A DNA stretch of 64,000 nucleotides from Nevskia sp. Its GTDB lineage: Bacteria > Pseudomonadota > Gammaproteobacteria > Nevskiales > Nevskiaceae. The translations under genes were made by a program, and so were the position numbers. This document shows, in pieces, positions 29,967 to 42,326 of this stretch. Under the pieces are notes generated by a model that did no database searches, was not told the DNA's origin, and saw only the letters and a program-made list of their open reading frames with translations. Each line of letters opens with the position of its first letter. Position 1 is the first letter of the stretch. The DNA lies in contig NZ_JAKFUM010000010.1 of the NCBI RefSeq assembly GCF_021732705.1, positions 438,120 to 502,119 of the forward strand, read 5' to 3'.

Positions 29967-32056
29967 TGGCCACTCCCGTGTCTCTGCTGATAGAAATGGG
30001 CTGCGAAGACCTGCCCGCGCGCTATGTCGTGCCGCTGGCGGACGCCCTGTCCGCCGGCATCGTCAACGGCCTCGGCCGACGCGGCGTGGCGCTCGGTGCC
30101 GCGCGCACGCTGGCCACGCCGCGCCGCATCGCCGTGCTGGTCGATGCGGTTGCCGTGCAGCAGCCGGATCAGGCGATCGAACTGGTCGGCCCGGCCATTG
30201 CCGCTGCACGGAAGGACGGCCAGCCCACGCCGGCCGCGCTCGGCTTCGCCAAGAAGTGCGGCGTCGACTTCAGCCAGATCGGCGAGAAGAACGGCAAGCT
30301 GCATTTCGCCAAACTCGAAAAAGGCAAGCCAACCGCTGCGTTGCTGGCCGAGATCTTCGAGGAAACGCTGAAATCGATGGACGAACTGGTGCCGAAGCGC
30401 ATGCGCTGGGGCTCCGGTGAAGAAACCTTCGTGCGCCCGGTGCAGTGGCTGACCGCGCTGCTCGGCACCGACGTCGTGCCGCTGCGCCGTTTCGGACTGG
30501 AATCCGGCCGCGTCACCTATGGCCACCGCTTCCACGCGCCGGCGGCGATCACGCTGGCCGATCCGTCGGCCTATGTCGAAAGTCTGAAGAACGCCAAGGT
30601 CTGGGCCGAGGTTGCGACGAGAAAAGCCGAAATCGAACGCCAGATCAAGGCCGAGGCCGCAAAACTGGGCGGAAACGCCAGAATCGATGCCGGCCTGCTC
30701 GATGAAGTCACCGCGCTGGTCGAGTGGCCGGTGGTGATTTCCGGCCGCATCGAGGACCGCTTCCTCGAACTGCCGCCGGAAGTCATCGTGGCGACGGTCG
30801 AGACCAACCAGCGCTATTTCACCGTGTTCGACGCGTCCGGCAAGCTGCTGCCGGCATTCATCACGATCGCCAACATCGAGTCGAAGGACGTGGCGCAGGT
30901 CATCCAGGGCAACGAGCGCGTGGTCCGCCCGCGACTTTCCGATGCGCTGTTCTTCTGGCAGCAGGATTTGAAGCTGCCGTTTTCGGAGGCCGCGCCGTAT
31001 CGCGAGAAGTTGGCCTCGGCCACGTTCCAGAAAGACCTCGGAACGGTCGCCGACAAGGTCGACCGGATTCGTCTGCTGGCCGTCAGGATCGCGGATCGAC
31101 TGGCGGAAGCCGGCGCCATCACGACCGAGCAGGCGGCCGGCGCCGCTGCCGCCGCCGCGGTCTGCAAGTTCGACCTCGTGACGAAGATGGTCTACGAGTT
31201 CCCAGAACTGCAAGGGGTTATGGGCGGGTATTACGCCGTCAAGGCAGGTGATCCCGCTGCCGTGGGGGTCGCTATCCGCGAACACTACCTGCCGACTCAG
31301 GCGGGCACGGCTATTCCTTCGACGATCGAGGGCCAAATCGTCGCGCTTGCCGACAAGCTCGATACGCTTACTGGCATTTTCGCTATCGGCCAGAAGCCGA
31401 CCGCCAGCAAGGACCCGTATGCGCTGCGACGTGCCGCGCTCGGGATTCTTCGCATCCTGATCGAGGGCAAGCTGCCGCTCGACGTGCAGCAGCTTCTGCA
31501 GCAGGCGTTGCAGCAACAGCCTGCCGGCAAGCGCGACGAATCCACCCTGAAGGACCTGCTGACCTTCGTGCAGGAACGCCATCGCGCGTGGCGCGTCGGC
31601 AGCGACATCGACGGCCGTCCGGTGACGGTCGAGATGTTCGAGGCCGTTGCCGCGCTTGGCATCACGCAACCGCTTGATTTTGAAGCCCGCCTGCGCGCCA
31701 TCCACAGCTTCTGGGCGCTGCCGGAAGCGGCCAGCCTTGCCGCCGCCCACAAGCGCGTGCGCAATGTCCTGAAGCAGGCCGGCGACGGTGCTTCGGACAT
31801 CGATGCCGCCAAGTTCGAAAACGACGCGGAATCAGCGCTTTACGCCGCGCTGAACGCCGTCAGCGCGGCGCCGGCGGCCGATTACGCCGAGCGTCTGAAA
31901 CAGCTCGCCACGCTCAAGGCGCCGGTCGATGCCTTCTTCACCGGGGTGATGGTGATGGCCGATGACGCGGCGGTGCGCGCGAACCGGCTGGCGCTGCTGC
32001 GGCAGCTCGACCGGGTCTGCCGCGAAGTCGCCGACATCTCGTGCCTGCCGGGCTGA
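29966..32056 (+). CDS. glyS: Glycyl-tRNA synthetase beta subunit
   Basis: A 696-aa tRNA-binding subunit of glycyl-tRNA synthetase, close to the usual 690. SLLIEMGCEDLPARYV starts the protein; MRWGSGEETFVRPVQWLTAL, VEWPVVISGRIEDRFLELP and ETNQRYFTVFDASGKLLPAF are conserved, as is the HD-like region (YYAVKAGDP, EHYLPTQAG) and the C-terminal anticodon-binding domain ending DVMVMADD-type FTGVMVMADDAAVRANRLAL. A stretch near 31200-31400 uses noticeably different synonymous codons from the rest. The gene starts on the last base of the GST stop. Confidence 0.96.
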   Translation: MATPVSLLIEMGCEDLPARYVVPLADALSAGIVNGLGRRGVALGAARTLATPRRIAVLVDAVAVQQPDQAIELVGPAIAAARKDGQPTPAALGFAKKCGVDFSQIGEKNGKLHFAKLEKGKPTAALLAEIFEETLKSMDELVPKRMRWGSGEETFVRPVQWLTALLGTDVVPLRRFGLESGRVTYGHRFHAPAAITLADPSAYVESLKNAKVWAEVATRKAEIERQIKAEAAKLGGNARIDAGLLDEVTALVEWPVVISGRIEDRFLELPPEVIVATVETNQRYFTVFDASGKLLPAFITIANIESKDVAQVIQGNERVVRPRLSDALFFWQQDLKLPFSEAAPYREKLASATFQKDLGTVADKVDRIRLLAVRIADRLAEAGAITTEQAAGAAAAAAVCKFDLVTKMVYEFPELQGVMGGYYAVKAGDPAAVGVAIREHYLPTQAGTAIPSTIEGQIVALADKLDTLTGIFAIGQKPTASKDPYALRRAALGILRILIEGKLPLDVQQLLQQALQQQPAGKRDESTLKDLLTFVQERHRAWRVGSDIDGRPVTVEMFEAVAALGITQPLDFEARLRAIHSFWALPEAASLAAAHKRVRNVLKQAGDGASDIDAAKFENDAESALYAALNAVSAAPAADYAERLKQLATLKAPVDAFFTGVMVMADDAAVRANRLALLRQLDRVCREVADISCLPG

Positions 32057-32131
32057 GCACTCGCGGCGTTGGCGATGCGTTGAATCGCATCGCCAGCGAG
32101 TGCGAACGCCCGACCGTTCCGGTCGGGCCGG
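32057..32131. repeat. Paired hairpin element between glyS and gmhB
   Basis: Hairpin 1 has an outer stem GCACTCGC / GCGAGTGC and an inner stem GGCGATGCG / CGCATCGCC. Then GAACGCC leads into hairpin 2, CCCGACC / GGTCGGG, closing with GGGCCGG. The first base follows the glyS stop directly. There is no T-run. The GAACGCC-stem-GGGCCGG layout recurs in the ABC permease leader at 41496-41524, with different stem bases. Confidence 0.6.
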
Positions 32132-32209
32132 GCGGCTGCCGGTCGGCGGCGCACATCGATTCCGACGGCACTCCGCGCGCGGCGCAGACCCCAACTTGAG
32201 CAACGCGAC

Positions 32210-40444: not shown

Positions 40445-41395
40445 ATGAACACCCCTCCTCTCGGCGCCGGCCCGCCTGCGCTCGAAATCCGCGATGTCCG
40501 CAAGACTTACGGCACCGTCCGTGCCCTGAACGGCCTCAGCTTCCAGATCCAGCAAGGCGAATTCTTCGGTCTGCTCGGCCCGAACGGCGCCGGCAAGTCG
40601 ACGCTGATCAGCATCATTTCCGGCCTGATCCGCGCCGACGAAGGCCGGGTCGCCGTGCTCGGCCACGATACCGTCAGCGACTGGCGCGCTGCCCGCCGCA
40701 AGCTCGGCGTGGTGCCGCAGGAACTGGTGTTCGATCCGTTCTTCAAGGTCGTCGACCTACTGCGCATCCAGGCCGGCTACTACGGCTGCGGCAAGGAAGT
40801 CTGGCCGTGGATCGACGAGATGCTGGAGCGCCTCGAACTGGGCAACAAGCGCACGGCGATGATGCGCACGCTGTCCGGCGGCATGAAGCGCCGCGTGCTG
40901 ATCGCCCAGGCGCTGGTCCACAAGCCGCCGGTCGTGATCCTCGACGAGCCGACCGCCGGCGTCGACGTCGAACTACGCCGCACCTTGTGGCGCTTCATGC
41001 GCGACCTGCACGCGAAAGGCACGACCGTGGTGCTGACCACGCACTATCTGGAAGAAGCGCAGGAAATGTGCGACCGCATCGCCATCGTCGACAAGGGCGT
41101 GCTGCGCGTGGTTGAAACCACCGAAGGCCTGCTGAACCGCCACCCATTCCGCTTCCTGACCCTGAAGCTGGCCGATGGCGCGACGATGCCGCCGAACCTC
41201 GCGGAACTGGTCACCAGCGAGAAGGCCGGCGCAATCGAGCTCAAGCTGGATCGCGAGCGCCACCCGATCGCCAGCGTCTTCGCCGGCCTGAAGGCAGCCG
41301 GCATCGAGATCGCCGATGTCTCCACGCGCGAGCCGGACCTCGAGGACATCTTCGTCGAACTGACCGCCAAGCCGGCCGCGGGAGCGCTGTCATGA
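40445..41395 (+). CDS. ABC-2 type transporter ATP-binding protein
   Basis: A 316-aa ABC ATPase. Walker A GLLGPNGAGKSTL, Q-loop VVPQELVFD, signature TLSGGMKRRVLIAQAL, Walker B VVILDEPTAGVDVELRR and H-loop LTTHYLEEAQEM are all intact, with the C-terminal regulatory extension found in DrrA/CcmA-type exporters. It drives the permease encoded downstream. Its stop overlaps, by ATGA, the start of a 55-codon leader ORF that repeats the permease N-terminus. The substrate is unknown; position before bolA and murA is common in proteobacteria, where it is usually an uncharacterised exporter. Confidence 0.92.
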   Translation: MNTPPLGAGPPALEIRDVRKTYGTVRALNGLSFQIQQGEFFGLLGPNGAGKSTLISIISGLIRADEGRVAVLGHDTVSDWRAARRKLGVVPQELVFDPFFKVVDLLRIQAGYYGCGKEVWPWIDEMLERLELGNKRTAMMRTLSGGMKRRVLIAQALVHKPPVVILDEPTAGVDVELRRTLWRFMRDLHAKGTTVVLTTHYLEEAQEMCDRIAIVDKGVLRVVETTEGLLNRHPFRFLTLKLADGATMPPNLAELVTSEKAGAIELKLDRERHPIASVFAGLKAAGIEIADVSTREPDLEDIFVELTAKPAAGALS

Positions 41396-41559
41396 GCCCG
41401 AACCAGCTGGGGTTCTACACGCTGCTGAAGAAAGAGGTGATGCGGTTCTGGGTGAGGCGGGGTTTGTTCGATGGCCTCATGCCATCGAACCCGCCGAACG
41501 CCCATCCGCTTGCGGATGGGCCGGCCCGAACAGAACCGCAGGCGGAGGCCAGCCGATGA
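41392..41559 (+). CDS. Leader ORF repeating the ABC permease N-terminus
   Basis: A 55-codon ORF. Residues 1-20 are identical to the first 20 of the permease at 41556, but 12 of those codons differ, every change at the third position and synonymous. After the Trp it becomes VRRGLFDGLMPSNPPNAHPL and ends QAEASR. Its start overlaps the ATPase stop and its stop overlaps the permease start, both as ATGA, so translation could pass from ATPase to leader to permease. It may be a relic of a duplicated gene start or a coupling device; a peptide function is unproven. Confidence 0.55.
   Translation: MSPNQLGFYTLLKKEVMRFWVRRGLFDGLMPSNPPNAHPLADGPARTEPQAEASR
41454..41524. repeat. Paired hairpin element in the permease leader
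   Basis: Hairpin 1 is GTTCGATGGC / GCCATCGAAC with loop CTCAT, extended by a bulged GGCGGG / CCGCC. Hairpin 2 is GCCCATCCG / CGGATGGGC with loop CTTG, introduced by GAACGCCC and closed by GGGCCGG. The same flanks surround a different stem at 32104-32131, and GAACGCC also opens an imperfect hairpin in each gpsA repeat (12046, 12176). Confidence 0.6.
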
Positions 41560-42326
41560 GTCCCAATCAACTCGGCTTTTACACCCTCCTCAAGAAGGAA
41601 GTGATGCGGTTCTGGTCGGTGCTGGCCCAGACCGTCACGGCACCGGTGCTGACCGCGCTGCTGTACCTGCTCGTGTTCGCGCAGGCGCTGCAGGGCCGCG
41701 TGGTGTCGGGCTACGACGGCATCACCTACACGCAGTTCCTGCTGCCGGGTCTGGTGATGATGACGGTGCTGCAGAACGCGTTCGCCAACACCTCGTCGTC
41801 GCTGGCGCAGTCGAAGGTCAATGGCAACCTCGTGTTCCTGCTGATGGCGCCGATCGGGCCGTTCGAGATGTTCCTCGCCTATGTCGGTGCCGCGCTGGTG
41901 CGCGCACTGCTCGTGGCGCTGGCGATGCTTGCGGTGGCCGGGCCGATGGTTGGCCTGCCGCTGGCGAATCCGTTCGCGCTGCTGGCGATGTTCGTGCTGG
42001 CCGGCGGTGCGCTCGCGGTGCTCGGCATCATCGCCGGCATCGTCTCGACCAAGTTCGATCACCTGGCCGCGTTCTCGAACTTCATCATCACGCCGCTCTC
42101 GTTCCTGTCGGGCGTGTTCTATTCGGTGCATTCGCTGCCGGAACCCTGGTTCACGGCCTCGCACCTGAACCCGTTCTTCTACATGATCGACGGCTTCCGC
42201 TACGGCTTCTTCGGCCACGGCGACGTCTCGTACTGGCTCAGCCTCAGCTGGACCGCCGGTTTCTTCGTGCTGGTGTCGGCCATCTGCCTGTGGATGCTGG
42301 TCACCGGCTACAAGCTCAGAAAGTAA
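41556..42326 (+). CDS. ABC-2 type transporter permease
   Basis: A 256-aa integral membrane protein with about six hydrophobic segments, matching the ABC-2 permease family (QFLLPGLVMMTVLQNAFAN, KVNGNLVFLLMAPIGPFEMF, PLSFLSGVFYSVHSLPEPW). It partners the ATPase at 40445. The first 14 codons are enriched in codons rare in this window (AGT, AAT, CAA, TTT, CTC, GAA), unlike the rest of the gene and unlike the upstream copy of the same 20 residues. The ATG overlaps the leader stop by ATGA. Confidence 0.92.
   Translation: MSPNQLGFYTLLKKEVMRFWSVLAQTVTAPVLTALLYLLVFAQALQGRVVSGYDGITYTQFLLPGLVMMTVLQNAFANTSSSLAQSKVNGNLVFLLMAPIGPFEMFLAYVGAALVRALLVALAMLAVAGPMVGLPLANPFALLAMFVLAGGALAVLGIIAGIVSTKFDHLAAFSNFIITPLSFLSGVFYSVHSLPEPWFTASHLNPFFYMIDGFRYGFFGHGDVSYWLSLSWTAGFFVLVSAICLWMLVTGYKLRK

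Follow-up and report, generated by a model that had tools for sequence, protein, structure and literature searches.

A doubled permease gene start in Nevskia brackets a short hairpin element that recurs at the ends of unrelated genes

Results

A hairpin element separates two copies of a permease gene start

The window, that is, the whole 64,000-nucleotide stretch of Nevskia sp. DNA that was analyzed, carries an ABC transporter ATPase gene followed by a complete ABC-2 type permease gene (Table 1). Both encode ordinary ABC transporter parts. The 5′ end of the permease gene is present twice. The two copies encode an identical 20 residues with 12 of the 20 codons differing, every one of them synonymously, and as DNA they form a 60-nt direct repeat of 80% identity, mismatched at 12 of 60 positions. 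The 104 nt that separate them are a two-hairpin element, which reads GTGAGGCGG...CGAACGCCC directly after a GG and is a member of a dispersed repeat family. An earlier note on this DNA had described a leader ORF that shares its first 20 residues with the permease, with 12 codon differences that are all synonymous, and that overlaps a neighbor as ATGA both at its start and at its stop. These observations were confirmed, and the coordinates of the shared residues are exact; the two ATGA overlaps lie at 41392–41395 (with the ATPase stop) and at 41556–41559 (with the permease start). The note missed the hairpin element, whose insertion is the reason that two copies of the permease start exist. The "leader" is mainly the footprint of this insertion. 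The arrangement exceeds chance, as judged from a 60-nt repeat of 80% identity and from the interruption of the same codon in two other species.

Table 1. Features of the permease locus and of a second element copy in the window
Feature	Position	Strand	Evidence and remarks
ABC transporter ATPase	40448..41395	+	Pfam ABC_tran 3e-35; stop overlaps first permease-start copy (ATGA)
Upstream (first) copy of permease 5′ end, 20 codons, ending ...TTCTGG	41392..41451	+	sequence comparison
Leader ORF across the element, 55 aa	41392..41559	+	stop overlaps permease ATG (ATGA)
Hairpin element insert, 104 bp, starting GTGAGGCGG after GG	41452..41555	+	72.4 bits with a 37-sequence covariance model that includes this element itself; fold z -4.08, 0/200 shuffles equally stable; also in G010 and G002
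Hairpin 1: foot GTGAGGCGGG / CCCGCCGAAC, GA opposite GA, 5′ bulge	41452..41499	+	
Hairpin 2: GCCCATCCGC / GCGGATGGGC	41500..41521	+	inverted-repeat pair and consensus; RNA fold of the whole 104 nt gives this region other pairing
GGAGG, Shine-Dalgarno-like, 7 nt ahead of second start	41544..41548	+	sequence; putative function; also in G010 and G002
Downstream (second) copy of permease 5′ end, now the working gene start	41556..41615	+	
ABC-2 type permease, complete	41556..42326	+	Pfam ABC2_membrane 1.1e-32
Second, weaker element copy	32053..32135	+	34.9 bits; no flanking duplication detected

One further property of the locus is a complementarity, at 14 of 15 positions, between the element (41526–41540) and the second gene start (41605–41619), spanning the insertion point; its core, CAGAACCGCA, is present in G010 and G002 too. 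The idea that the element acts as a guide complementary to its target was rejected, since a by-eye comparison at a few other loci revealed no counterpart.

The insertion in relatives

The permease was found in 61 of 61 genomes searched, and the 30 loci returned were read together with 15 named ones. The start is doubled in the window genome (G000), in G010, and in G002, whose permease is just 78% identical, and all three are interrupted at the same codon. The doubled start of G010 lies at the same contig positions as in PNMW01000011, a record that carries the title Lysobacteraceae; genome grouping places G010 in the genus of the window. Both copies begin MSPNQ in G000 and G010, and both begin MNANQ in G002, as do its own unoccupied relatives. 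Among nine close relatives compared, six (G005, G014, G016, G009, G013, and G015) are unoccupied and have no leader. The unit measures 164 bp in G000, 164 bp in G010, and 161 bp in G002, an in-frame indel of 3 nt. In Solimonas marina a weaker element (40.2 bits) sits 20 nt into the same permease gene, at a different codon. Of the 20 nt ahead of it, 13 agree with the gene start, a degree of matching reached by 3 of the 3740 other 20-mers in the locus, and this insertion is probably separate and older.

In all four permease insertions (G000, G010, G002, and S. marina) the stop of the leader frame lies in the ATGA with which the permease begins; the left ATGA was checked against the ATPase stop in the window. 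This regularity is what one would expect of a leader peptide or attenuator under selection, the doubled start being kept since translation of the leader controls the permease, and it holds even in S. marina, where the element occupies another codon. However, the same six of nine close relatives do without a leader, the residues encoded by the element part vary freely while the frame is kept, and the same arrangement recurs at tRNA genes and at antisense 3′ gene ends, where a leader is impossible. Even with the substitution pattern described next, which speaks in its favor, we regard this explanation as quite improbable.

Synonymous differences between the copies

Across the three species, 32 of the changes between the two permease copies are synonymous and 2 are nonsynonymous. 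Elsewhere, 19 sense loci give a raw ratio of 44:31, or about 40:16 after codons ahead of the start were removed by hand. Comparison of 32:2 with 40:16 gives a Fisher p of 0.013, with the proviso that the three permease loci may share history. Because of this ratio relative to elsewhere, the upstream permease copy looks constrained, a constraint that could be explained by its role as the start of a coupled leader. The selection on the peptide in both copies that the earlier note had invoked is thus supported in part, by the 32:2 ratio at the permease, but upstream copies are not constrained in general. The start-copy peptide of the leader is conserved in G000 and G002, carries two residue changes in G010, and has drifted in S. 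marina (MTRDPLR vs MSPDQLG). Likewise, upstream copies at mtnC have gained a stop in G068 and several residue changes in G061. Free decay of the leader in relatives, named in the note as evidence against its view, is therefore seen in part: upstream copies drift, but the leader frame is retained at all four permease insertions found.

The codon choice itself is less polarized than had been described. Measured against 2648 codons from seven window ORFs, the downstream copy does use rare members of their synonymous sets, namely AGT (share 0.00), TTT (0.01), CAA (0.10), CCC (0.12), AAT (0.16), and CTC (0.22). However, three of the changed codons (GGC, ACC, and AAG) are the commoner choice in the downstream copy, and the upstream copy contains the rare codons GGG (0.04) and AAA (0.08). 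The suggestion that codons were scrambled to protect the repeat from recombination finds no support, since several copy pairs are identical, among them that at mtnC of the window genome (39/39), and tandem arrays hold near-identical units.

The copies differ from each other by 12 nt in G000 and by 11 nt in both G010 and G002. By comparison, differences between native 60-nt permease starts span 5–11 nt in the unoccupied relatives of G002 and 5–8 nt in those of G000. The 12 nt of the window thus lie at the top end of ordinary variation. These values bear on the possibility that a foreign permease allele was imported by homologous recombination, with the element as a passenger. Indeed, in G002 the first copy and the native G015 start are separated by 2 nt, and the second copy differs from the native starts of G009 and G013 by 7 nt and from that of G015 by 11 nt; in G000, the first copy differs from the G016 start by 3 nt and the second by 11 nt. 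Nevertheless, both copies lie inside the synonymous diversity of unoccupied relatives, and a sliding comparison that extended about 1.1 kb upstream of the element and up to 1.9 kb on its downstream side found no change of affinity and no breakpoint in the flanks. Allele replacement, as the earlier note had entertained it, is not borne out. Import would also leave the recurrence of the arrangement at many genes unexplained, and we consider it highly improbable. The codon differences probably reflect two alleles of the same gene start that have diverged synonymously, for which no special cause is needed.

A widespread element family

A search with the linker of G010 returned fragments in other genomes. 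One of them, at nirB of a Solimonas (L152), follows the same plan of start copy, element, altered start copy, and ATGA. A pattern search then gave 47 matches, distributed over 20 genomes among the 58 of the window's family, and a covariance model was built from 37 element copies. The consensus has a stem foot, GTGAGSCGG / CCGSCGAAC, with GA opposite GA, a loop that often reads CCRGTGG, and then a second hairpin; GTGAG pairs with CGAAC in the consensus fold. Of 26 consensus pairs, 18 vary at both positions in one or more sequences, a count that leans towards the structure because RNAalifold derived that structure from this very alignment.

The model finds matches in 54 of the 58 family genomes (E ≤ 0.001), with up to 40 per genome, and 25 in the window genome at E ≤ 0.01. 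More broadly, 23 of 184 sampled Gammaproteobacteria carry the element (E ≤ 1e-5), the window genome included. GG precedes the core in 107 of 120 copies, and in 33 of the 38 with a flanking duplication. Rfam searches of 18 loci at the gathering score reported tRNA genes and no family over the element. A plasmid search gave one partial match (47% of the query), and a viral contig search gave one exact pattern match, adjoining a tRNA-Pro. Variants also occur. Four copies (L201, L165, L171, and L179) have a longer second hairpin with an additional conserved GTTTG...CAAAC stem, and the copies of G162 (L403–L409) share an extra left-flank segment that terminates in ACAGGATTAAGCAGG and are paired with an inversely oriented copy some 70 nt away, in the manner of a composite repeat.

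Flanking copies end where genes end

To score flanking duplications, the sequence ending at the first base of the core was aligned to the 260 nt behind the core, and a score of at least 12 was taken as positive; the number expected came from mismatched pairs of non-duplicated copies. Of 120 element copies, 38 were positive vs 0.4 expected, and 82 were without duplication. This set comprised 112 family copies and 8 from elsewhere, with the three permease loci known beforehand. Excluded were the near-identical L164, L180, and L181 as well as L153, which was unclear; the inner copies of the arrays L273 and L277 were counted once. In the window genome, 6 of 18 tested copies were positive. In other families, 96 model matches were cut by hand to 61 by removing overlapping loci and copies already counted, and 60 of these were scorable (L373 repeats L206 and is negative); 25 of the 60 were positive vs 0.6 expected. 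All but one of these 25 are tRNA genes by sequence, the exception being L413, which is weak and non-tRNA. The attL/attR-like feature of a gene reconstituted beside a flanking partial copy is thus present in 38/120 and 25/60 copies. Recently multiplied intergenic copies in G018 and G162 are without duplication. These, together with the 82 unduplicated copies, imply that insertion without a gene-end copy also occurs, or that the mechanism differs.

The duplicated stretch is usually a gene end, and it leaves a complete gene downstream of the element. Protein targets, named from motifs, include mtnC (between DIEG and TT), a HAD phosphatase (between FDWDG and T), nirB (VGNGM), cca, aroC, a metallo-beta-lactamase-like gene, and tatD; antisense targets at 3′ ends are lysS, a response regulator, and a small ribosomal-protein-like gene. 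tRNA genes are entered in sense after G18G19 of the D-loop or antisense in the T-arm. Complete tRNAs for Arg, Phe, Trp, Thr, Lys, Ser, Pro, Met, and others follow the element, and ARAGORN predicts a complete tRNA at 19 of 21 such loci (none in L189 and L380). At three places (L394/L205, L385, and L418), single tRNA genes are flanked by units on both the D-loop and T-arm sides.

The position at which the copy stops is tied to the gene. Among 26 hand-curated cases with clear gene ends, where those of L189, L380, and L243 rest on our judgement, the copy ends between -1 and 9 nt from the gene end in 25; in L204, a 52-nt duplication runs 36 nt beyond the tRNA end. The length of the duplication, from 16 to 60 nt, tracks the distance to the gene end with r = 0.976 in these 25 cases, and with r = 0.955 when one permease locus is retained. 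Whole units measure 131–151 bp in 39 of 54 hand-listed cases, and the window unit measures 164 bp. A fixed or freely varying target duplication is disfavored because the length scales with the gene end, and a random duplication would often overshoot. Selection for an intact gene could remove duplications that are too short, yet it would not trim those that are too long.

mtnC insertions, tandem arrays, and candidate movers

At mtnC, the insertion occupies one site in nine genomes, six of them among 29 loci from an mtnC search and three from the element search; a tenth genome, G067, in which element and gene are adjacent, is a probable further case. The identical mtnC copies of the window genome, where the relatives examined have other codons, read at face value as a true target duplication rather than as a carried allele. 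Elements also occur in tandem. The tRNA-Met of G100 is preceded by seven units of about 145 bp. In the window genome, three tandem elements precede a tatD-like gene start (L277, G000:C2:197660-197964), the first start copy reading MAGWIDIGA and the later ones MALVDIGA, and three antisense tandem elements lie at what was read as the 3′ end of lysS (L275/L273, G000:C4:138481-138803), each with the last codons. The mtnC gene of G066 (L337/L163) bears two tandem units in which the middle start copy is synonymously different while the first and last are nearly identical, a pattern that simple unit duplication does not explain.

One could suppose that the element transposes or is retroposed and thereby generates a target-site duplication that is long and variable, 16–60 bp, with two copies that are identical at first and then diverge, the downstream one being constrained as protein. 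The identical or nearly identical copies at L294 (39/39), L235 (35/35), L238 (38/39), and L204 (51/52) agree with this proposal, as do the conservation of one element end where the other is variable and the decay of upstream mtnC copies. However, the tie between duplication length and gene end, and the tRNA series, set it back as the main cause, and recent intergenic copies have no duplications. Nor do the expected enzymes accompany the element. A Y1 transposase was rejected as the mover since its presence does not track the element: the element was found in none of 20 Y1 neighborhoods searched (E ≤ 0.05), and G062, G066, G069, and G072 hold element copies with no Y1 match. In a contrary case, G023, the element lies about 1.1 kb from a Y1 pair, which consists of two near-identical RAYT-like genes (L296, 2144–2674 and 3329–3859). 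Retroposition was rejected since RVT_1, which is present in 23 of 58 genomes, is absent from G000, G069, G072, G025, and G077, all of which have insertions. Indeed, G069 and G072 match neither Y1 nor RVT_1, yet their mtnC genes carry insertions with copies of 30/32 and 38/39. Overall, a target-site duplication seems to us an unlikely source of the flanking copies.

Discussion

We propose that the doubled permease start is probably the integrated copy of a very small, gene-less element, with a unit of about 140 bp. Such a unit would consist of the hairpin core, beginning GTGAG, with the end of the target gene copied behind it. In the target, the core would lie directly after the stretch that matches, usually next to a GG, and the gene-end copy beyond it would rebuild the gene. 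Its left end would be attL-like and its right end attR-like, as in integrative elements that target tRNA genes, with hairpins alone between them. From these structures we infer that the element moves with its own gene-end copy in a Campbell-like event, the recombinase being supplied in trans from elsewhere. A unit that carries a gene end joined to a flank unrelated to that of its host would give copies that end at gene ends. The inserts are about 100 bp long, have no integrase of their own, and carry no cargo in the units read. In the window, ribosomes would pass from the ATPase to the leader and on to the permease via the two ATGA overlaps, so that the operon would stay expressed and the upstream copy would persist as the start of the leader.

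In its broader form, the proposal is more tentative. The family may represent an undescribed class of micro-integrative elements across Gammaproteobacteria, gene-less and about 140 bp long, which carry the ends of their target genes such that insertion repairs the break, gain new targets through the capture of new gene ends, and are moved by a recombinase, host or foreign, that recognizes the hairpins. If the units move, their size is far below that of the integrative elements compared with them, and they would be selfish DNA inside essential genes (tRNAs, lysS, aroC, and cca), held at low cost by the spare gene end. Their movement would account for incomplete tRNA copies and for unusual short leader ORFs in annotations, and would provide natural side-by-side pairs of synonymous gene starts. 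The question would then be what recombinase recognizes a hairpin core of 100 bp and locates the matching gene end. If the units do not move, the tie between duplication and gene end still needs explaining.

It is useful to contrast the element with known systems. In the literature searched, which covered few subscription journals, we recognised no paper describing this hairpin element. MITEs are small, non-autonomous, and palindromic, with terminal inverted repeats and short target duplications of fixed length. The element resembles them in its first three properties, but the GTGAG end alone is conserved, and the flanking copy of about 15–60 nt follows the gene end. Rickettsia palindromic elements are palindromic repeats that lie inside protein genes and are read in frame. 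In contrast, the element described here leaves no insert to be tolerated within the protein, since the second gene-end copy rebuilds the gene, and tRNA genes are hit as well. Integron cassettes have attC sites, which are folded, single-strand-like, and marked by an unpaired bulge, and they form arrays. A folded site with an unpaired bulge and an arrangement in arrays are shared with them, whereas the ends have no attC-type GTT/AAC core sites and insertion takes place at gene ends.

Two systems come nearer. PYG1 of Pyrococcus yayanosii is bordered by one partial and one complete tRNA-Gln, with direct repeats of 44 bp, and the tRNA-targeting islands that this source describes measure about 9–23 kb and have an integrase (PMC9897764). 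As in the islands so described, a partial gene copy stands on one side and a complete one on the other, the direct repeat ends at the crossover, and the gene is rebuilt; here, however, the insert is about 100 bp of hairpins, and one core family is found at many unrelated genes. REPs that go with REP-associated tyrosine transposases start with GTAG or GT(A/G)G and are described as extragenic, and IS200/IS605 elements are described in the same account as being without larger target duplications (PMC2817692). Like the REPs of that account, the element is short, dispersed, palindromic, and non-coding, has a short 5′ head before the hairpin, and occurs in clusters. Unlike them, it holds GTGAG inside the stem, with no GTAG-type head outside the palindrome, and is absent from the 20 Y1 neighborhoods. 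We file it under neither tRNA-integrated islands nor REPs, because it lacks the defining feature tested for each. Its closest anatomy is that of the tRNA-integrated islands, and its closest look is that of the REPs.
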